Positions 23,336 through 51,618 of a DNA stretch of 64,000 nt are shown piece by piece. Below the pieces are notes generated by a model. It did not search any database, was not told the origin of the DNA, and saw nothing but the letters and a program-made list of their open reading frames with translations. Made by a program: the position numbers and the translations under genes. The DNA lies in NCBI RefSeq assembly GCF_026914185.1, contig NC_070563.1:7771001-7835000 (forward strand), written 5' to 3'. How positions within the stretch are numbered: the stretch's first letter is position 1; each line of letters begins with the position of its first letter. This DNA comes from Puccinia triticina (lineage: Eukaryota > Basidiomycota > Pucciniomycetes > Pucciniales > Pucciniaceae).

Positions 23336-23781
23336 AAAGGCTGAAACGCTGCGCTGCGCTACAAAAAAGCGGCCTTTTAGCGCAGCGCAGCGGGGAACCG
23401 CTGCGCGGTCAGCCCAAAAAGCGGTAGCGCAGCGCCAGCCCCGCTGCGCTACCGCTGCAAATAGCAGGGCCCAGCTTTTTCCCCAACCCAAAAAGCGGTA
23501 GCGCAGCGGGCGGGGCCGCTCCTTTCAGCGCTGCGCAGCGGCCACCAAAAAAGCTGCGCTGCGCTTTTTTTGGCTGGCAGCGGGGGAGCGCTACGCGGCC
23601 AGCTCAAAAAGCGGTAGCGCAGCGATGGTTCCGCTGCGCTACCGCTGAAAGTAGCGGGTCTTTGCTTCTTTCCAGACCCAAAAAGCGGTAGCGCAGCGGG
23701 CAGGGCCGCTACTTTCAGCGCAGGGCAGCGGCCACCAAAGCCGCTGCGCTGCGCTTTTTGAAGCGCAGCGCTTTCACCCTT
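23336..23781. mobile_element. GC-rich hAT-like MITE with GTGTAGTG duplication
   Basis: An 8-bp duplication GTGTAGTG flanks the element (23328-23335 and 23782-23789). The ends AAAGGCTGAAACGCTGCGCT and, reverse-complemented, AAGGGTGAAAGCGCTGCGCT are related. The interior is strongly GC-rich, with many copies of GCGGTAGCGCAGCG in both orientations. No gene inside. Confidence 0.8.
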
Positions 23782-24321
23782 GTGTAGTGGAGGCCTGCCT
23801 ACCTAGGAAATATAACTATGCTCTCATATATATATACATGATTTTACTATTTGTATGAATTTCTGCCTAGATATGGCCTGCACTAAACCTATAATTGTAA
23901 ATAAATTTGAAAATAACTGAGCTAGCTGGGTAGCTGGAGTCAAGCTAGGGATTAGCTCCCATTGTTGCTGTTGGGGTCAGTACAAACAACCGGCCAGAAA
24001 GGGCGGGTAGACATTTGCATTTGACGCCGGCATCAAACCAACTGCTCAGTTTGACGCTGGGAGCCATACAAACCCCATCAGACGCTGGGATCAAGCCAAC
24101 ATGTACAATGAATTTCATCCCAATGTCAATCCCTTGTTGGCTTAGCGCAGGGTCAGTAAGGTGTGCACCAACGCAAATGCCAACGTCAGATAGACGTCAG
24201 AGTCTAGCTTAACAAAGCCTCTTGGGCGGAGGGTCCGGGGGAACCCGCCCGGGGGGCTCTCCGCAGGAGAGGCTTATGAGTTATGTCTTGATTCAAGCAG
24301 GAGCAGAAAGGATCTGCTACA

Positions 24322-24346
24322 GTTGCGCAAGGCATCCTACTGTACA
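24322..24346. repeat. 25-bp internal inverted repeat, left copy
   Basis: GTTGCGCAAGGCATCCTACT plus TGTACA-type end; exact reverse complement of 37049-37073. Absent from the short element IV. Confidence 0.85.
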
Positions 24347-24929
24347 AGAAATACCCCCAGGGACCCCCGTCCGAAATTTTAGCGCCAGTTTTTTTGTTTT
24401 TTCCCAATTTTTCACAGCCAAAATCAGTTGGAAAAGGGGTTGTGATGGGTTGGGATCACGGTGTACATATGTAGTACACGCCGGGGGTACTTCCTGGCGA
24501 GCGGGTTTGTGGATACAACGGGTGACACCGACTTCGTGAAACCCACATATAATTCACTCGGCCCCCGTCGGTATCACCACCCAGTTGAAAATGGGTGGAG
24601 ACGAGGCAATACCCAGTTGTCTCCACCCTCTCGGGGTCTCCTTGTGATAGCACAGACGAGGAATCCACGGCCACCCTTGGCGCCCGGTGGAGCCAACAAG
24701 AACACAGAATTGTGTCCAATGGGATTTCCTTGTCTTTCCATCAGACAAGGAATCCACAGTTGTTGCTGGATTCCAATGGTGACAGAGACGCTTAGGGTTA
24801 GTTCAGTGACAATTGCTGCGGTCCATGCGCATCCACTTGAGGACACGCAAACCACTCCCAGGGCAAGCAACAACTTGCCCGATTTGAACTGACATCTCCC
24901 ACTGCGAGCTTGCCCATCTCCGCACAGAG

Positions 24930-25178
24930 ACCACCGAGCACACCCAAGCAGCCACCAACCTCCCTCGCCTGCCAGAGACACCCCACACTCCTCCCCTTCA
25001 CCTTCAACCTCGCCGAAGCCAAGGGCCAGATCCAGGCTGCAGACCCACTAGTCTCCATCCGACAGATCAAGAAACCGTTCCAGCAAGCGATCCAACTCAC
25101 CCTCAAGTAAGCACAATCCGCAGCCACAACCAACAGCAGCAGGACCAACTGACTGTCACTCTTGTCCACGCAGAAACC
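24930..25178 (+). pseudogene. Captured host-gene fragment in element I, upstream exon
   Basis: Reads FTFNLAEAKGQIQAADPLVS and IRQIKKPFQQAIQLTLK up to a donor (CTCAA|GTAAGC, exon end 25106). The intron ends CACGCAG at 25173. The next exon begins AAACC (25174-25178) and is cut there by element II. It resumes at 35736, where the frame reads on as NQTVDPHLMPTYYCLQRLL. I do not recognise the protein. The conserved-looking residues and a proper intron suggest a cellular gene piece carried by the transposon rather than a transposon gene. Confidence 0.5.
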
Positions 25179-25665
25179 CAAACTTAACACAAGTCCCAAG
25201 CCTCCGTGCGGGCGTGCAGCATTTGGCTGGTTGCAAAGCGACCCCGACCGGAGGGAGGGACTTGCATGCAATTGCACCTTTCTTGCGTGAGACGATTCCA
25301 AGGTTTGGCTGAGGTCAGCCTTGTTTGCGTCACCACACCCTCTTCACTCAACCTAATCTTTCTAGGTTTTAACAAGTCATACGTCTACATGTTCTTTATT
25401 TTTCTGCATTTTTTTTAATGCAAAATCTGCATTGCATCCAGTGAAAAACAATTATTGAAGTTCAACATTTTGAACTTTGATTCTTGAGGATCATATCACA
25501 AGGCCCGAGCGCGGTCACATTAAAAGCATAATTATGCTTAAGGGGGACATCTACCGAGAAGCTCACATCACACGGTAACTTCTGTATAATTGCCATCCGA
25601 TCACCACATCAAAATTTTTGATCACAATACTCGCCCTTCCGATCTCAGCCCTCCGGTAATTCAAG

Positions 25666-26480
25666 ATGCTCCCTCCCCCCGACCAACCCGCTAATCTCTC
25701 AACCCAGGCATCAAAGGTTTCATACATTTGCGACGTGATGAACTCGGTCAACATGTCCCCAAAGAAATTCTTCCTTGCTTTTGTGGAGCAAGACGACATT
25801 AACATAGTTAGCAGGCGTTGTCTTTGGTCAAATGAACGCTGGGACTCAACAAAAATTCTAACTTAACAAAGTCCCTCCCTATGCGGGAGGTCGGAGTTCG
25901 GAGTTCGGGTGGTGGTACGGGGGATAACTCATTTGGGTGGAGCTTAAGTTTGGCTGGTGGCGAAGCCACCCCCTCCCGCAGGGAGGGACTTACGCCTAAA
26001 GCGACTGTTTGGGTGGCAGAGCACCCACCAAAAAAGGATGAAAATCTACATTTTGATTTTTCCAGCCTGCAGCTTCAACGCTGCCCCCCCCATTGTCGGG
26101 ACTTAAGCAGCTATATACATCATTGAATTTTTAAGCTCTTCAGCTCATCGCAATAGCATCAAGGGATTTTTTGATTGGTTTTTGAAGAAAGAGGCAAGCC
26201 TCAAGACCACCCTCTTCTTGTGCGGTGCCTGGCCCCGCAGGTCCGAGCGGGGAAATTTGCTTTTCCCTTTATTCTCCTTTGATTTTTTGTTCGAGTGATT
26301 CTCTTCAATAACGGAGTCGATAGAAAGACAGACAGGATGCATTCGCATCCATCGATGGTCGGAACCTCATATGTAGCTCGCATAAAGAGCGAGCTACAGC
26401 CTCTCAAAGTTCAACCAGATTTCCGCCCGATGCTCTCAGGCGAGCACCCCCGCTTTGGGTATAAGTCCCTCCCTGCGGTC

Positions 26481-26514
<34 letters not shown>

Positions 26515-29100
26515 AGCCACACGCAGAGGAGGGACTTAGTTAAGTTAGACAAAAATTCTTCTTAATGCAATTGGAACCATGGTTTGCTCTCAAGAACCTG
26601 GCAAAACAAACTGGAGCGATTTTATCCTTGGCCAGGTATGTGTTGTGATTCTTTTGGGACTGACTCTCAATCTCCTGCTTCATCAACTCATCCCAAACTG
26701 AGTTTATGTTTTGTTCTTCAGGCCCAGAAAATCCTTAAGGTCAACAAGGAACGCGACAAGCCTTGAGGATTGTACTACAGCTCCACGAAGATCAAGCCAG
26801 ACTTTTTCAGCGAGAAAAACCGAGCGGCCAGGGACAAGCAAATGACGGACAAAGAGCATCCTTTTCTTTACAGACTCCTCAAGTCCAAAATTATGCACCA
26901 ATCAGCTGTTCAAGACAAATATTCCGACGGCGAAGACGATGACAAGGATGACGCTGACTCGCTGCGGGGCCCCTTTGACGAACCTGCTGAACTTGACGAG
27001 GACACTAAAGCTGCGGCTAAGATCCATCATGCCCACGTAGTAAGTCAACTTATTAACCTGATTTGCCTTTATTCAATGTTAATAAATCTTTTTGTTGCAT
27101 TTTTATCTGTCCTGCAGGTAGCTAAAACAATGTGTTCAATGCTCACATTTGCATCCAACCAGCGCAAAAATGCAATGCAGTTGGAAAATTCAATAACCTT
27201 TGTAGCTTGCGGAATCCTTGACCGGGTCAACAAATATCTCAATTTTATCGGATTAAGCTCCTCTCGTCAGACTGCTCATTTGGCGTTGCGCACGCTTGGA
27301 AGGAAAGCCAAACAAACAATTAAGAACCACATGAAACTAGGTCCTCCATTGTCTCCAAACTTCTGCCCACTGATTTGCATAGACAACCTCGATTTCCAAG
27401 AAGCAGTCCACGTCAAATCAGTCAACAACCAAAGCAGTATGTTCCACGGGACCTGGGGGTACCTCCATCATCCCAACCCCGCAATACTAGCTAGCGTTGA
27501 TCCAAAAGACCTAACCATTGAAGCTTACAAGATGGCCATTGCAAATTCTGCTGAGGAAACGATCTCACCCGGGAAATTTGTCTTAACCAAGGAGGAAAGT
27601 TCCCACTATTGATCAGTATTGAAGAGTCAAGTAGCTAGTGTTTTCATTACCTACATTGCTGAGGCAACGGATAAAACACCGATCATCCCACTGAAGCCAC
27701 CTCCAATCAAAGTTCTAGACACTCAGAAGCCAGACATCACCATGCTCAAGCTGATGATTGCATCCAACAACAGCTCCGAAGGAGTTGGCAAAGTACTTGA
27801 AGGGCTTGCACGACAAAGCGGACAGACACCTGCAACATTTGCGTCTAGACTCATGATCCTCAAAGGTGATCTAGGCACCTGTCTAAACTTCAGCAGCTTA
27901 AAAGCACAAAGAAAACCGAACAATCTTCCGGAGGAAAGTATGTCAAATATTTTCATTCTACTTGGTGGGGCACACACACTCTGGAATGTTGCGCAGGCGA
28001 TCATTTCCCTGCACTTTGGTGACAGCTTGGATTCTAAAGACCTTGGATGCTGGCACTTCTTTGAGGCTCTTGGGGTGAAATAAAATCAAGTCCTCAACAA
28101 GAAGGACTTCTCACTGATGCTTGTGCAGGTACAGAAGGTCCAAGAAGCAACAATTGCTTATCTGATCCTGTATGATCCTGTACTCTTCTTTTCCTTGTTT
28201 TATCATCTGTTTTTTTCTGTTGGCTTATTGACACTTGATTGCCCAATTCATTTCATTACTTCAGGTTGATTATGGGGAAGCAGACAGATGCTTTCCCCAA
28301 AGAAAAGCTTTCCATGAAAGCAAGCAATATTGTTAGCATAATTGATTCAGTCTACAAAAAGTTTCTTTCCCCCCAGGCCCTTTTGAAAGCAAAGAATCCC
28401 AAAGCGCCATGCCTTGCAAACATGCTACTCCGCCTGCGTGATTTCTCTAGTTTTGTCGAATGTAACCGGGCAATGAAAGCGGGCAATATCAGGCGTGTAT
28501 TGAATATCTGGAAGAGATGGTCGGTTATGGCCATGGGAATCCAAGGTCTCACAAGCTATGCAATTGACCTGCCTCAAATGTATCTATTACTCACAAAAGT
28601 ACTTCCCCCCTGACTTTGATTAGTCCTCAAGCATTCCCTTCTCATTTCTCCATCAGGTAGGCCAAATCATTTTTTGGCTAAAGACTTTTACCTAGAAAAT
28701 CAAAAATTCTTCTTGAAGTACTTCTATAATAACACGGGCATGGGCACAAAGATTGATTGGCTGAAAGATGAGTACTCCCTTGCCATCCCTGTTGTAAGTA
28801 ACTCAATATTATTCCTTATTTGAACAGTTTATTAACAAAATCCCTCCATCTTCAACAGCTACGTGCGCTCCTGGACTCGCTTAACAAACAATGTGGTCAA
28901 GATCATATTTATCAGTCGCACAAGAACACTATTTCAATGCCTTCAATGCTTGGCTTCATCAAAATGGACAATCAGTACAATATTTTCTGTACCTCCGCCA
29001 AATCAAATCGAACAAACAAAAAGGAGGTGGTGGACATCTACAGAAATGGGTTCAAAGTGATGCAATCGGATGTGAAGAAAGGAAGCACCAAAATGAATTG
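25666..29100 (+). pseudogene. DUF6589-family protein gene, interrupted
   Basis: Unknown-function family common in basidiomycete genomes; I infer a transposition role from its place in element II. First piece from ATG 25666: FFLAFVEQDDINIVSRRC to WDSTKI at 25857. It resumes at 26558 after element III as LLNAIGTMVCSQEPGKTNWS. Later blocks: CPLICIDNLDFQEAVHV and MFHGTWGYLHHPN near 27400; MILKGDLGTCLNFSSLKA and ILLGGAHTLWNVAQAI near 27900; NHFLAKDFYLENQKFFLKYF near 28700; DHIYQSHKNTISM near 28920. Introns at about 26636-26721, 27020-27117 and 28168-28263 are GT-AG. In-frame stops at about 26764, 27610 and 28081 show it is dead. Confidence 0.7.
25858..26548. mobile_element. Element III: 691-bp non-autonomous member, 9-bp duplication ACAAAAATT
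   Basis: ACAAAAATT lies at 25849-25857 and 26549-26557. The ends read CTAACTTAACAAAGTCCCTC and, reverse-complemented, CTAACTTAACTAAGTCCCTC. Each end has a hairpin built on AAGTCCCTCCC..GGGAGGGACTT. It splits a codon run of the DUF6589 gene: the flanking protein reads DSTKI before it and LLNAIG after it. An unbroken C-run of about 33 lies at 26487-26514 and beyond, in the right hairpin. No gene inside. Confidence 0.85.
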
Positions 29101-30815
29101 ACTACGCCCCGCAACCACCCTCCACAAGCAGACTATTGATGATACAGAGGTTCTTGACAACAATGGGCAAGTTCACAACAAAGAGGATGATGTTGTGTCT
29201 TGAGTTTGGTCAGATATAGGTATAGTTGTGGCTTTAGATTTTGGGGTTCTCAAATTGCTAACTCTTTCTCTGTTGCAATTAATTTCAGTCAAAGGAAGGA
29301 CTATTGTCGTGTCTTCAGTCGGCCCAAGATCTATTGTTGTGTCTTCAGTCGGCCCAGGTTCCGGTCCAGTATGTTTCTCTCAAAGTCTTTCTGCATTATC
29401 CCTTTTGTATTGCTCTAGAATCACTTGATCATCTAGCCATTTCAACCTCTTCCTTTCTCTCTCTATCTTGGCCTTTGTTGGAGGTTTTTTTGACTTTGAG
29501 GTGTCCACTTCTGTAATTTTCCTTTTTTGAGTGTGATTTCCCCGGCCTCCTCTTATGTAATCCTGGTAAGCATTTCCAGCGCAATATATATTGATTACGG
29601 TTTGTTCCAAATGCTTCATCTGCCCATCAATCATCTCTCCACCAATAACTCGAGTGATTTCCATCAGGGGTAGGCCTCTTTTGATAGCAAGCGCAAACGC
29701 TCTTGCTTGCTGGATCTCAAAAATCTGTTCAACATGCACTTCTGCTGTATCCACATTGAATGTTTCCTCAAACAACCGGCCAAACTCTGCCACCAGCTGA
29801 TTAGCCAGTTCTTCCAGGACCGGCGCAAGCAGAGCTTTGGTTGATCCAAGCCGGTACGTCGGCCGTTGAGATTCTCTTGCATAAATTGTGTTCAGAGGAT
29901 TGTCTGGTAAGTCTTCCCCTGTTTCCATGTACTGATCAAAGTTTGACGTTTGGAATCTTTGAAAATTATCCAAAACACTCAATACCTTTGTTGGCTCACA
30001 GTTGGAACACAAACATGCAGGGAACATCATCTCCCTTTGGCGCGCACGTTCTTGGATCACGTTGGGATCCTCACAGGATAATGGTACATATCCAACCCTG
30101 GAAAAATGTAACAATATTGTAAGTTTATCTTCTCTAGAAATTGACGCCTCTAGGTGGAATATCTTACATGTCATCTATGGCAAAACAAATTTGCAAGCAG
30201 ACCGGAGTGATTGCCAGAGCATCCATCCTCTCACCATTGGTTTGTCAAGTAGGTGTAGTGAATTCTTCAACCCTGTTCTTACCAGATCTGCGATTTGGCT
30301 CAACAAACAAAATGGCCAATCCATTCTATCCCCCTCTCCCACAGCAACCAATCAACTGACAGATGGATGCGGGATCCCCTCGTCCAATGTGAAAAACCAA
30401 TCGAACCCGCTTCCAATTCTGGCCCAGGCCTAGTGCCATCGTACAAAAGATTACAGGAAATTCACCAGCCGCAAATTTTGTCGTGGTCTCTTGCTTTCTC
30501 ACATCACCCAAACATGCGTGGAACCGCCTAGCAAAGGAACTGTTGGCATCTCCGTGGCCACCTGGGATCTGTTTAGCCTTGTGAATAACCTTCAAAGTTT
30601 GCATGGTAAGGTTTTGAGTAGTGGAATAGATCAGTGCTGGTATTATCTCTTTGTTGGGGATGCAGGAACGTGGCCCGTATAGTTGCAGGAGGTCATAACA
30701 CGACTTTAGCAAATGTTTCATCGGCACCCAAATGATGCAAATCTCCGGTCGGCTGAGCTCCGCATTGCGGTAAGATATAGACTCTTCAGTTATTTTTAGG
30801 CTCTCTAGAAACACT

Positions 30816-33800
30816 GGGTAGTTACGATATGATACATTATTGAGCGTTTTTTCATATCGTAACTAGTCCCGTTACTGCAAACCATCGTTACGGTAATTAG
30901 TAACGACAGGAATCCTTAGCATTCCATATTGTATCACAATCTTCTAGTTTTATTTGTTTATTTCTGGGTACCGTAGCGCCACTAACGCGCCATAATGCCC
31001 AGTATTGTGCTTTACCCTGGGGAAGTGTTCTACATACCGCTGAGTGTCAGCTTACCCCTGCATTCTTCTATCTGAAATGTTTCGGGCACAGTACCCACAC
31101 AGTTGTACTGTTGGATTCCGCGGAATCCGACAGTACAACTGACTGTGTTGGGCCTTGGCGCTGCTAATCCCAGCGACTCCCCCCTGTCATTGAAGCTTAG
31201 ACATTTTTCGAAATCGCGCTCCCCTGTTGCTTGCCAATCACCAGTAAATCCAAACACTCTTGGTTTTTTGAAACTTTGCTATCAGCTTTATCTTCTTAAC
31301 TGCATCCAAGATGAACCCCAGAACTCAGTCAGAGAAAGGTACCGAAGACCTGGATGCTAGTGGATATGCAACTGACCAGTCTCAACTCCGCCGTTCAAAA
31401 AGAGCATCATCGGTGGTTGCGGAGCCAAACATGATTCCAACAGTCTCAGATTCTCGCGCCAGTTTAACGAAATCAGCCAAAACGCCGGCAGCCCCCGCTT
31501 CGGAATCTGCTCAGTCAACGGGCCCATCCAAATCAAAAGCTAAGCCCAAGAAAAAGCGAATCATTGAAGACGAGTCCTCTGCAACTGAAGTGGCGCCTGC
31601 TATTGTCAGAAAAAAGAAGACGAAGCCCAAGAAACCAAGCAAAAAGGCATCTGTGCGTGTGAATATGATTTCCATTGATTAAACGAGTGGGTGATTAAAG
31701 CTTTTGTGATTGATTTGTTTTGAATGTTTTGATTAGGCAAACACGACTGTTGAAGACTATGACTATAGTCAGGAATCAGATGAATCTATCGAAATTCAGC
31801 CTTGCGAAGCTAAGAGAAAAATGGAAAAGGAGTTTGATCATATACTTGATTTGATCACGAACCTTTTTGGAAAAAAAATGACAAGCCCAACACTCAGATT
31901 AACTACCGCTGCAAATGGTGTAAAACCGTTGTCCGTGCGCACCCAACCTCAAATGGCAACTTGAAGGTCCATTGGGACGGTTCCACTCAGTCGGAAAACA
32001 AAAGTGTTGGCTGCGTCAACCGATCAAAAGCCAAGGAAGCTGGTGCAAAATTACCACCCTCCGTTGCCGAACGCAATCTCACTGAAGCTAAGGGTGGGGG
32101 TGATCCGAAGCAAACCGTCATTAGTGGATTTCTTCAGGTCAAGCCATCATTTGTCAACCGGGTTCTCAACCAGTTGATTATGATATGGCAGATTCGCCAG
32201 GCGCTGCCATGGACACGGATTGAAGATCCGTACCTTCGTGCAGCTTTTCTGTATGCAAACAACAAGGCCATTCTGTTTGCACGACATTGGTCGGCCGATG
32301 AGTCAAAGAGACTCTACTCAATGCTGAAAAAAAATGTGTTTGATGATTTAAATGTACGCTACAGTACATGTGCTTGCTATTCGTTAAATTTTGCTTTTTG
32401 ATACTGATTGGTAGCATGTAATTTTTTCATAAGAACCTTGATACAAAGTTCACCCTTATCCATGACGTATGGACAACAAAGGGGAACAGATTCGCATTCA
32501 TTGGGGCCGCGTTGGCTTACATCAATTTGGACTGGGAGTACACAGTCCGACATTTAACTCTCAAGATGATTCCATGGAAGCATCATGGACATTTACTTGC
32601 ACGGCCGATTGCTAGCCTCCTCAACAAAAAAAAACTGTTCCAAAAAATGTTGGCACAGACTACTGATTCCGGTTCAAACAACAACACTATGGCCAGCGAG
32701 ATGTATAGCTTGATATACGCCAACGAACCACCGGAGACCAGCTCGTGGGATCCGATGACCATGCACGTCCGCTGCTTCTGTCACAAGCTAGCGCTGATTG
32801 TGAATGCCGGCCTGGCCTCTTTATCACTGAAAACGCTTCCCCCAGCAAAAGCCAAGGAGTCGGTCCTTGGATTTTTCCCCGTTCTAGGGAGACTTGTCGA
32901 GGAAGACGAGGATGCAGTTGAAACTTTATGCTCGGAGTCGTCTGGTTCAGCCTTGGGCGTTGATTTGGACCCAATGGCCACGACAAGTCTGATTGAAGAC
33001 GATTGCGCTTCTCAAAGCGACTACGGTAATGCTGATGATGAGCTGTCTGATACCAATGTGGCTCCCACTCCCACTCCAGCTTCCGAAATCGATCCTGACG
33101 ATGAACCAGTCACAGAAAAACATGCAAATACAACCATGCTTCAAGCACTTACGACAAAGTTGGATGTTGTGATCAAAAAAATCACCCGGTCTGCAGCTCA
33201 GCGAGCAAGTTTCAATCGCATGGCCAACAAGATGGGTGTTAAGGTGGCGCCATTGATTGCGGGTTACGGGATCCGCTGGAATGTGAAATACGAGAGCCAC
33301 CGCAAAGCACTTGATGCCCGAGAAGTAATTGACGCACTTCTCAAGGAAGATCAAGCCCAGGAAGAAACCGGGGTATTCGACAACGTGCATTTTTCTCCTC
33401 GGGATTGGGTTTGGATTGACAAATTAAACCGCGAGCTTGAGGTGTGTATTCTCAATTAATTTACACAACTTGACTGCCACTGATCATACGACCATTGACA
33501 GGTTTTTGTTACGCTTACCGCACAAATGGAAGGGAATCAGCCCACCGGGGCGCACGTGATTCCTAAATATTTGGAGCTTAAGGAGCAGCTATCCGGAAAG
33601 CTCGATCGCGCCGAAGAGAAGGACCCATTGTATCCAATGTACTATGCCATGCTCAAGCGGGTTGAAAAGTACTTGGCGGAGGCGATGGACTGTGAGACGC
33701 TGCTACTTGCCACTCTTATTCATCCATGCTTTCGGATCCATATTTTTGAACTGGTCTTTGGAGCCAAAAGCAAAGAGGTCAAGGATTGTCTTGAACTTCT

Positions 33801-34325
33801 CAACCGTTGGTTCCTGGACTTCAAGCAAAAACCAGTCTGCGGCTCAACCTTGGCCGACCCATCCGAGATCACATGTTTAGAAAATACAACAGCACCCGAT
33901 TCAGACTCCCTCATGTCACGGCTTGCGTCCCGTATGACTCAGCAAACGACTCCGCAGGAAAACAAAATAGAATCTTTCCTCAAAGCCGAACTTGCCTTCA
34001 ACAGCAAGTCAATTGCCAATAAATCCACTCCTCTGAAGTGGTGGCGGGATCACTGCATGGCTTATCCGACGCTCTCTCGGATGGCACGGGCGTATCTTGG
34101 GGTATCTGGGAGTTCGTGTGCAGTCGAAAGACTATTCTCCGCTGCTTCCGATGTCTGCAGCAGCAGCGGTGGCTTGAACCCATCTACAATGACTCGCTGT
34201 GTCAGTAGTATGATGTGGCTAAGGGAGCAGGTCCCTCTCACTGGTGATTTTGAGGAGGCCGGCAAAGTTTTAAAATCTTTGGTGCCAGGTCCAAAGAAAA
34301 AAGCGCCTGCATGATTTTCGCCGAG
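30816..34325 (+). mobile_element. hAT element (hAT-2) inserted in the helicase gene
   Basis: Occupies the gap in the helicase gene. The left boundary begins ACACTGGGTAGTTACG, similar to the end of the MITE at 22802. The right boundary follows the transposase stop almost at once, so the right terminus is probably lost. A complex palindrome lies at 31090-31150 (CAGTTGTACTGT arms around GGATTCCGCGGAATCC). No target duplication was found. Confidence 0.6.
31311..34314 (+). CDS. hAT transposase with BED-type finger, one frameshift
   Basis: Exons about 31311-31655, 31737-32353, 32434-33441 and 33502-34314. Order: a Lys-rich N-terminus; a BED-like zinc finger (YRCKWCKTVVRAHPTSNGNL then KVHW); LIHDVWTTKGNRFAFIGAA; the catalytic-region block QTTDSGSNNNTMASE; VRCFCHKLALIVNAGL; a long acidic insert; and the C-terminal dimerisation region VSGSSCAVERLFSAASDVCS. 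One frameshift lies at an 8-A run (31870-31877), where one more A would keep the frame into the BED finger. Otherwise the frame is open. It may be a recent pseudogene, or the base may be a homopolymer sequencing error. Confidence 0.75.
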
Positions 34326-35730
34326 TAAAGGCGCATTAATTCCTAAAAGCCTGGCCGCAATGTCTCCGTACAATGGAAAAAAAACAGCCCGATCCTGATG
34401 GCGGCCATGCGAGAGGAGCTTCTTTGATTTTCCACTAGCAACCAAGCCCCACACATAAATCATGTGTGCCTCGTCCACCACAACCAACGAAACATGATCC
34501 TGGAAGCTCTTGTTGAAAAAAATTCTGGTAAATATTGCATTGTTTAGCAACACCTCAGGGCTCTTCAAAACCATTAGCTCAAATCCAAACAGTAGAAATA
34601 ATCAATCTACTAACTCACCAGGTAAATGAAAGAATATTTCCCCTTCAATATCTCTTCTTCGACTTCCTAATTCAGGTTCATTTTTGTGAGATTGATTGCT
34701 GATATTCCCAGATTTCTTGTTTCCAGTACCTATGTATGTATCACGGTTTAGTTTGTGGGATTTTTGTATTGAATGGACAAAAGTGCTTACCTGATTATTG
34801 CCAAGCGAGTCCAAAGGGTTCAATACCAACACGATCGGCTTTTTATATTTGGGAAATAAATCCCAGTACATCTCAGCAATCCGGCTCTTGCCAACTCCAG
34901 TTCCGGCAAGGACAAAAGTATTGCGGCGGTTAATCAAATCAATGACGGAATCTAGTTGGACTTCGCCTGGGGTCCATAAAACTTTGCCAATTGGTTCTTC
35001 AACATTTCAATTTGCCGTTCTTGGGTCATGTTGGTGATATTCTTTTTCAAGGTAAGTTCACCCGATTTATTGTTGAGCACTTGTCCAGATCCTCCCAACA
35101 AAGGTTCTTCTGTGTGGTTGATCAAGACATCTTCAAAGGGTAAGGGGTCTTCTGTAACACTGATAGCATCTGCCGGCGACGTTGAAGGGAGCGTATCCGG
35201 CTGATCATTACCGCCAGAAGGTGGATTCATCTGTATGTCCGCCATGGTGATTGTGAATGTTAGGTTCTTCAGGAGTTGTGTTCCGCTTTTTTTCCCTGAC
35301 TTGGACTTGCCTTCAATCAGTGTTTACCGAGTTGGACTCAGTAATATATGTAGCTGTTATTAATGATTGCTTAATTTTCTTTAACTCAGCATTTTTTCAT
35401 TAATTAACCTTAGTCATCATCATATGTGATGTTCTTCATTATAATAAATAATTTCTTTGTATTTCTTGCAAGCCAGTTTCAAAAATGAAAAAATTAAAAA
35501 CAACAATAAGAAAAATATGAAAAAATAACTGACATGGCAAACTTTCAGAAAAACAAAACAACAAAAAATTGGGGTGAGGGGCGTAGACGTGAGAAGAGAA
35601 ACGGTTGAAACCGGGCTCTATATCACACTTGTCTCATGCGAGCTTTGTGTTCTTGCACGTAAGCCTCTCTGGTGAGACTGGGCTGCCGCCCAGACCCACT
35701 CACCACAAGTGGCTTAGTTAAGCTCGGCAG

Positions 35731-36119
35731 AAACCAGACCGTCGACCCCCACCTCATGCCCACCTACTACTGCCTCCAGCGCCTGCTCTGCGCGCTTCCC
35801 CCACTGCAATCGCCGCCCTACGGAGCATCATTGCACTCGCTGAGGCAAGAGGCTGCATGTAAAGGGCACAAGCTCAAGATGGCCCTTGACCGCCACCAGT
35901 GAGCCCTTGTTGGCGATCCTGCTCAGTAAGCCCCTTCTGCTGCCTAACCTCATCCTCCTTCTCACCAGCAGCTCAAGAACTCATTTGTCCACCACTCGGC
36001 CATCAGCCACACCAAGTCCACCAAATGGTGGCTCAAACATCTGCGCACCAAGATGGACTTGCCAACGTGTGAGGAGGGTGAGGTTGAGGGGACTTACAAG
36101 CTCATTCTCCCTATTTAAT
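35731..36119 (+). pseudogene. Captured host-gene fragment in element I, downstream exons
   Basis: Continues the gene interrupted at 25178. NQTVDPHLMPTYYCLQRLL leads to SLRQEAACKGHKLKMALDRH, and a donor-like CA|GTGAGC lies near 35901. An acceptor (CACCAGCAG) near 35970 precedes LKNSFVHHSAISHTKSTKWW and a stop at 36119. The frame does not join exactly at this second intron; one base seems to be missing, as expected for a captured copy under no selection. Confidence 0.45.
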
Positions 36120-37048: not shown

Positions 37049-37410
37049 TGTACAGTAGGATGCCTTGCGCAACTTTACACTAAAAATCCCAACTAATATA
37101 AAAAAACTGAATACACAGAGTTGTAGGTTCTGTTTTTGCGAGGAATTTGAGCTACTCATCTATCTTGTAGCCAGACAAACAACTCCTGGAGTCCCAAACA
37201 AGTGGAGCCTCATTTGGAAGACTTGTGAATTTTTGATCTATTGAAAAGGTCAACAGATTGTGATAGGAAAAATCTGAGTAGACCAAATTGTAGAGAAATA
37301 AAAGTAGCACAGGGTCCAGATAGGGCATATTGGTGGAGAGGCTGGGGGAGGAGCTATAAATTTTTTAAAAACCTCTCAGCCAAATGAACTTTCTGCTCCC
37401 GCATAAAATT
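37049..37410 (-). repeat. Copy of the interior of element IV, inverted
   Basis: From ACACTAAAAATCCCAAC (37067) to CAGCCAAATGAACTTTCTGC (37377) the sequence is the reverse complement of 51186-51510 with few differences. It starts with the right copy of the 25-bp inverted repeat (37049-37073). Confidence 0.85.
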
Positions 37411-51080: not shown

Positions 51081-51618
51081 CTAACTTAAAACAAGTCCCC
51101 CCTGGTGGGAGCGCTGTGGCTGGCGGCGAAGCCGCCCCTCCCGCAGGGAGGGACTTGTGCATTATCCCAAATTTTACGCAGGAGCAGAAAGTTCATTTGG
51201 CTGAGAGGTTTTTAAAATTTTTATAGCTCCTCCCCCAGCCTCTCCACCAATATGCCCTATCTGTACCCTATGCTACTTTTCTTTCTCTACAATTTGGTCT
51301 ACTCAGATTTTTTCTATCTCAATCTGTTGACCTTTTCAAAAGATCAAAAATGAACAAGTCTTCCAAATGAGGCTCCACTTGTTTGGGACTCCAGGAGTTG
51401 TTTTTCTGGCTACAAGATAGATAAGTGGTTCAAATTCCTTGCAAGAACAGAACCTACAACTCTGTGTATTCAGTTTTTCTATATTGGTTGGGATTTTTAG
51501 TGTAGCAGATCCTTTCTGCTCCTGCTTAAATCAAGACATAACTCATAAGCCTCTCCTGCGGAGAGCCCTCCGGGCGGGGTCCCCCGGACCCTCCGCCCGA
51601 GAGGCTTTGTTAAGCTAG
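51081..51618. mobile_element. Element IV: 538-bp deletion derivative of element I, 9-bp duplication AGCCAATGT
   Basis: AGCCAATGT at 51072-51080 and 51619-51627. Ends CTAACTTAAAACAAGTCCCC and, reverse-complemented, CTAGCTTAACAAAGCCTCTC. Hairpins: ACAAGTCCC..GGGACTTGT with an inner GGCGGC/GCCGCC stem on the left, and AAGCCTCT..AGAGGCTT on the right. In inverted orientation it matches the left 125 bp, the 37075-37410 block and the right 90 bp of element I, but lacks the gene-bearing interior. Confidence 0.9.

Follow-up and report, generated by a model that had tools for sequence, protein, structure and literature searches.

Convergent DUF6589 and RecQ-like helicase genes of Puccinia triticina in a decayed DNA transposon, probably of AcademH type

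AcademH, a lineage of the Academ superfamily, reportedly goes back to work by Kojima in 2020. Passages of a later paper (Kojima 2023, PMC10045372) give target-site duplications of 9 or 10 bp for AcademH and of 3 or 4 bp for AcademX, and link them to an encoded helicase and nuclease. Excerpts of a 2024 survey (PMC10799480) place low-copy AcademH elements in Basidiomycota, Ascomycota and Mucoromycota, and state that the DEAD and Helicase_C domains have been recognised as transposon-derived, likely via the discovery of AcademH and KolobokH. According to excerpts of a further paper (PMC9587614), KolobokH carries a RecQ helicase and occurs only in fungi, while Kolobok duplicates TTAA. Here, these systems are compared with element II (25179-35726), which lies in a window of 64,000 nucleotides of Puccinia triticina DNA (contig C6, 7771001-7835000), the whole stretch analysed, and carries a DUF6589 gene and a RecQ-like helicase gene. 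An initial sequence-only reading of this DNA knew of no described eukaryotic DNA transposon with this pair of genes. That no such element has been described is not supported, as the excerpted texts put both KolobokH (PMC9587614) and the helicase-bearing AcademH (PMC10045372) in print. The Pfam family DUF6589 was not found mentioned in print by a search of limited reach.

Element II is a genuine insertion. Its left inverted end, CAAACTTAAC, occupies 25179..25188 on the plus strand, and its right end, at 35717..35726, reads CGAGCTTAAC on the minus strand; both conform to the pattern CNANCTTAAC. An exact 9-bp duplication, GCAGAAACC, flanks the element at 25170..25178 and 35727..35735, so the matched ends and duplication first reported for the element are present. 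Between the ends, the DUF6589 pieces lie on the plus strand and the helicase pieces on the minus strand, in convergent orientation. A paralogous sequence on contig C8 (L110) runs on without the element and is an empty paralogous site. That element II belongs to a transposon carrying DUF6589 and RecQ-like helicase genes is nearly certain, and it is probably a decayed AcademH-type DNA transposon with DUF6589 as its DDE transposase. Helitrons encode a rolling-circle nuclease and a Pif1 helicase and have neither inverted ends nor duplications. Element II resembles them in carrying a helicase and differs in its inverted ends and duplication; as both of these are present, a Helitron identity was rejected.

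The sequence-only reading had tentatively assigned the two genes to one transposon and proposed counting how often they converge within 10 kb. In this genome (18 contigs, 122.8 Mb searched), a convergent RecQ-like locus lies within 10 kb of 109 of 131 DUF6589 loci; one further locus has its helicase in the same orientation, and 21 lack one nearby. Over 1000 trials of random placement, in which C12 and C14 were each given half of the remaining assembly, convergent pairs averaged 0.67 and never exceeded 5. Viewed from the other gene, the window's helicase piece detected 132 RecQ-like loci, of which 108 have a DUF6589 locus at a distance of 10 kb or less and 24 lack one. The 131 loci are the union of the first DUF6589 search, in which the best 102 of 223 candidates were scored, and a search with the first-half DUF6589 piece, which gave 130 matches with all 132 candidates scored. 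The helicase search with the Helicase_C piece scored 150 of 153 candidates. A further search (best 80 of 270 candidates scored) was left out of the locus counts. The first count alone had placed 78 of 83 DUF6589 loci in convergent pairs within 10 kb; in 64 of these pairs the gap was 1.4-2.2 kb.

Pairs for inspection of the ends were drawn from these 78. The gap is no longer than 2200 bp in 64. Of these, one belongs to the window, four were taken whole, and 59 are left, of which 30 had their ends examined, each having a DUF6589 match of more than 1 kb and a helicase match of 440 bp or more; the remaining 29 of the 59 and 14 wider pairs lie outside the sample. In 18 of the 34 other inspected pairs, both outer sides carry ends that match CNANCTTAAC with no more than one mismatch and are flanked by an exact 9-bp repeat. 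No pair (0/34) had an exact repeat at such ends of 7, 8, 10 or 11 bp, and none of 1122 flank-swapped controls, in which the left flank of one pair was compared with the right flank of another, had one of 9 bp. The pattern was set from the window, the loci L046 and L048 and the first 20 pairs; among the pairs analysed only after it had been set, 6 of 10 qualify.

The first 20 pairs were also searched with no end form prescribed, requiring ends alike at 7 or more of 10 bases and an exact repeat. At 9 bp, 12 of 20 pairs had such a repeat against 31 of 380 swapped combinations. Other lengths were unspecific: 18/20 against 341/380 at 6 bp, 18/20 against 196/380 at 7 bp, 7/20 against 107/380 at 8 bp, 2/20 against 10/380 at 10 bp, and 1/20 against 7/380 at 11 bp. 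Copies that are 97.5-99.3% alike carry different duplications, and on either side their similarity stops no more than 9 bp from the predicted end. The near-identical sets are L072/L076 with L073/L077, L098/L100 with L099/L101, and L102/L104 with L103/L105; in the L098/L100 set, the duplications GAGTTAGAC and AGTTAGCAT have six bases in common. Chance pairing was rejected on the convergent pairing, the duplications against their controls, and the limits of similarity at the ends. The proposal of one transposon is thereby borne out, both in the pairing and in the shared ends and duplications that bound other pairs.

These results also bear on a non-transposon origin, in which the two genes would be a repeated cellular pair or part of segmental duplications. 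Among the relatives listed (best 120 of 140), rust-genome proteins carry the labels hypothetical or uncharacterized, and a comparison of rust genomes, in its excerpted text, interprets RecQ helicases as an enriched gene class (PMC9370660). The 18 pairs with fixed ends and exact 9-bp duplications, similarity that stops at the element ends, and the empty paralogous site all speak against a cellular pair, and this origin is next to negligible in probability.

The DUF6589 gene is read from three pieces. The N-terminal piece (26770..27612, +) is an open frame with the CIDNLDF block, a motif seen by eye, and ends in an in-frame stop; it has no Pfam match of its own. The first half of the DUF6589 domain (27619..28080, +), with KGDLGT and GGAHTLWN, matches Pfam PF20231 at 1.5e-21, and the second half (28239..28610, +) matches it at 5e-16. 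The predicted model (pLDDT 86) is most like DDE transposases, namely Hermes, the P element, ISCth4 and RAG1; these are the structure matches listed, and absence from the listing does not exclude a family. Its strands are arranged in an RNase H-like order and lead into a long helical region. Acidic residues are conserved, with D128 or D131 and E455 or E534 (P0012 numbering) as candidates for the catalytic acids. The suggestion that DUF6589 may be a transposase, to be checked by looking for an RNase H-like fold with acidic residues, has thus gained ground: the predicted fold is of that kind, a non-nuclease-like fold was not obtained, and the gene is paired with transposon ends. On this evidence, DUF6589 is very probably the DDE transposase of the element family. 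At the level of sequence, the DUF6589 profile gave no useful match to PDB sequences (best E 0.46).

Both hAT elements and the P element create 8-bp duplications. The likeness to hAT (Hermes) and the P element is that they are top structural matches of the DUF6589 model; the difference lies in the 9-bp duplications here, with none of the 34 pairs at 7 or 8 bp. A hAT identity was rejected on this count and on the lack of any match to hAT Pfam families in six DUF6589 sequences. MULE (MuDR) elements have duplications of about 9 bp, and this length is what a MULE would share with element II. No MULE transposase family was found by Pfam at E up to 1 in six DUF6589 sequences (five proteins and one locus frame), a result that leaves room for a remote relation, and we know of no MULE with a RecQ helicase. 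It is very improbable that element II is a MULE.

The helicase gene lies on the minus strand in several pieces. The presumed N-terminal piece (34955..35245) is an open frame without a family match. The P-loop and DEAD piece (34605..34937) scores just under the Pfam DEAD cut-off (2.3e-5, 24.6 bits against 26) and has no PDB helicase match. The same negative holds for the frame with the DEAH-box piece (34335..34574, low bound approximate), whose motif, VVVDEAHMIYVWG, was found by eye and also occurs in the helicase frames of L046 and L048. The Helicase_C piece (30329..30814), with 146 genome matches, reaches 8.7e-6 against Pfam Helicase_C, and among PDB sequences it matches RECQ4 (5lst, 9.1e-6) and RecQ (0.009); its match to TIGR00614 (9.7e-6) is below the cut-off. 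The C-terminal piece (29383..30174) matches no Pfam family and has 124 genome matches. The longer helicase piece of L046 matches RECQ4, bacterial RecQ, RECQ5, WRN and BLM, as well as DEAD-box proteins, among 46 solved-structure sequences. Among NCBIfam families, this piece matches DpdF best (2.2e-16) and the RecQ family next (3e-14), all under their cut-offs. Judged by these sequence matches, the helicase of element II is RecQ-like, and the RECQ4 and RecQ structure matches, with the below cut-off NCBIfam RecQ family, agree with its original description as such.

A RecQ helicase beside a DDE transposase in a fungus recalls KolobokH as excerpts of PMC9587614 describe it, and in those excerpts Kolobok-1_CCri likewise has its helicase on the complementary strand. 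The 4-bp TTAA duplication given there differs from the duplications here, which are of 9 bp and of differing sequence. With these duplications and a convergent helicase on the opposite strand, membership of KolobokH, the fungal lineage with a RecQ helicase, is extremely improbable.

The name AcademH is given to element II because its features match: a helicase gene, a duplication of 9 or 10 bp, a fungal host among the Basidiomycota, and a DDE-type transposase, here by predicted fold. Membership is likely by analogy, being assigned on the features as described and not by sequence comparison with reference Academ transposases. The copy number differs: fungal AcademH elements are said to be low-copy, whereas this genome has 109 convergent gene pairs. 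The best verdict is that the family of element II would be a rust lineage of AcademH-like elements.

It is unlikely that the family is instead a DDE superfamily of its own, confined to rusts and separate from Academ, which acquired its RecQ helicase independently. Such a superfamily would fit the named DUF6589 relatives listed by three homology searches (best 120 of 140, 96 of 96, and best 120 of 157), which are all from Puccinia and Melampsora, the rest being unnamed proteins from other sources; it would also fit the fact that DUF6589 goes unnamed in the literature found. Animal and other fungal Academ proteins were not reached by these searches. That few hosts are listed says nothing about how narrow the family is, because the search detects only relatives that share exact words and scores a limited candidate set. 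Furthermore, the helicase, the 9-bp duplication and the fungal host agree with AcademH as the excerpted sources describe it. A stronger form, that the DUF6589 elements are a non-Academ superfamily whose transposition chemistry cannot run without a dedicated RecQ-like helicase, e.g., one that resolves a branched or replicative intermediate, is quite unlikely. To our knowledge, helicase-dependent transposition chemistry is known for no eukaryotic DDE transposon.

For the AcademH-like element, the following scheme is proposed. The DUF6589 transposase would bind the CNANCTTAAC ends, excise the element and join it to the target with a 9-bp stagger, the repair of which would leave the 9-bp duplication. 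As the element's second gene, the convergent RecQ-like helicase would most likely unwind the ends or the joined intermediates, or may aid repair of the staggered gaps. Short relatives with such ends, two of which lie in the window, would probably be moved by the same machinery.

The window's own copy is dead. Stops interrupt its DUF6589 frame at 27610-27612 and 28081-28083, positions that a visual comparison with the family alignment puts within the coding sequence, and its helicase gene is interrupted from about 30815 to 34335 by a nested hAT-like element. Hence element II, put forward as a candidate autonomous transposon, is not autonomous now. The coding part of the nested element (31311..34314, +) includes a Dimer_Tnp_hAT match (4.3e-12 at 33526-34311); its outer ends were looked for and not found. 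Elsewhere in the genome, 2 of the 21 DUF6589 matches first listed are free of stops, with introns read through.

A 691-bp non-autonomous miniature relative lies inside element II at 25858-26548, with ends CTAACTTAAC and the 9-bp duplication ACAAAAATT at 25849-25857 and 26549-26557. With at most one mismatch, CTAACTTAAC occurs 12 times in the window, against a mean of 2.64 and a maximum of 8 in shuffled sequence. The second short relative, of 538 bp, is at 51081-51618; it has CTAACTTAAA and CTAGCTTAAC as its ends and is flanked by the exact 9-bp duplication AGCCAATGT. The end motif CTAACTTAACAAAGTCC (at most two mismatches) has 1643 genome occurrences against 52 for its reversed control, which points to many short relatives in the genome.

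DUF6589, listed in Pfam with unknown function, gains a specific, testable role as a DDE transposase. The pairing also accounts for the large number of RecQ-like genes in this rust genome, as 108 of the 132 loci are within 10 kb of DUF6589. In excerpts of the rust genome comparison (PMC9370660), RecQ helicases are read as a variable and enriched effector class and tied to repair. The RecQ-like copies here look like transposon genes, and masking is advisable ahead of gene-family counts. The many natural copies are also available for studying the role of a RecQ-like helicase in a DDE transposon.

The target of the insertion is a fragment of a cohesin-loader-like gene. Its left part (24898..25112, +) matches L110 at 1088-1319 with 70% identity by blastn; its right part (35729..36106, +) matches L110 at 1377-1439 with 81% identity from 35734, and at 6e-22 by tblastn. 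In the genome search, the left flank of element II has one other match, on contig C8 (75% over 151 bases), and the right flank alone matches only itself. Local comparison places the right flank on C8 too, with 57 bases between the end of the left match and the start of the right. The L110 exons match the cohesin loading factor family PF10345 weakly and in order (1.3e-5 and 0.011, both below the cut-off).

Element II is itself surrounded by an outer inverted repeat (24318-24346 and 37049-37077), 97% complementary and 12.7 kb apart; the TA on both sides would be consistent with a TA duplication. When up to three mismatches are allowed, the genome contains 109 occurrences of the repeat's 24-base core, against none in the reversed control, and several inward-facing pairs are about 540-900 bp apart. 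These counts and pairs make the repeat look like the end of another transposon family. Besides element II, the outer ends enclose the cohesin-loader-like fragment (24949-25107 and 35729-36106). Possibly, this fragment was captured by the outer transposon and element II was inserted later. Further to the left, at 23344-23766, dense direct and inverted repeats on AGCGCAGCG and CGCTGCGCT form a possible separate small element.
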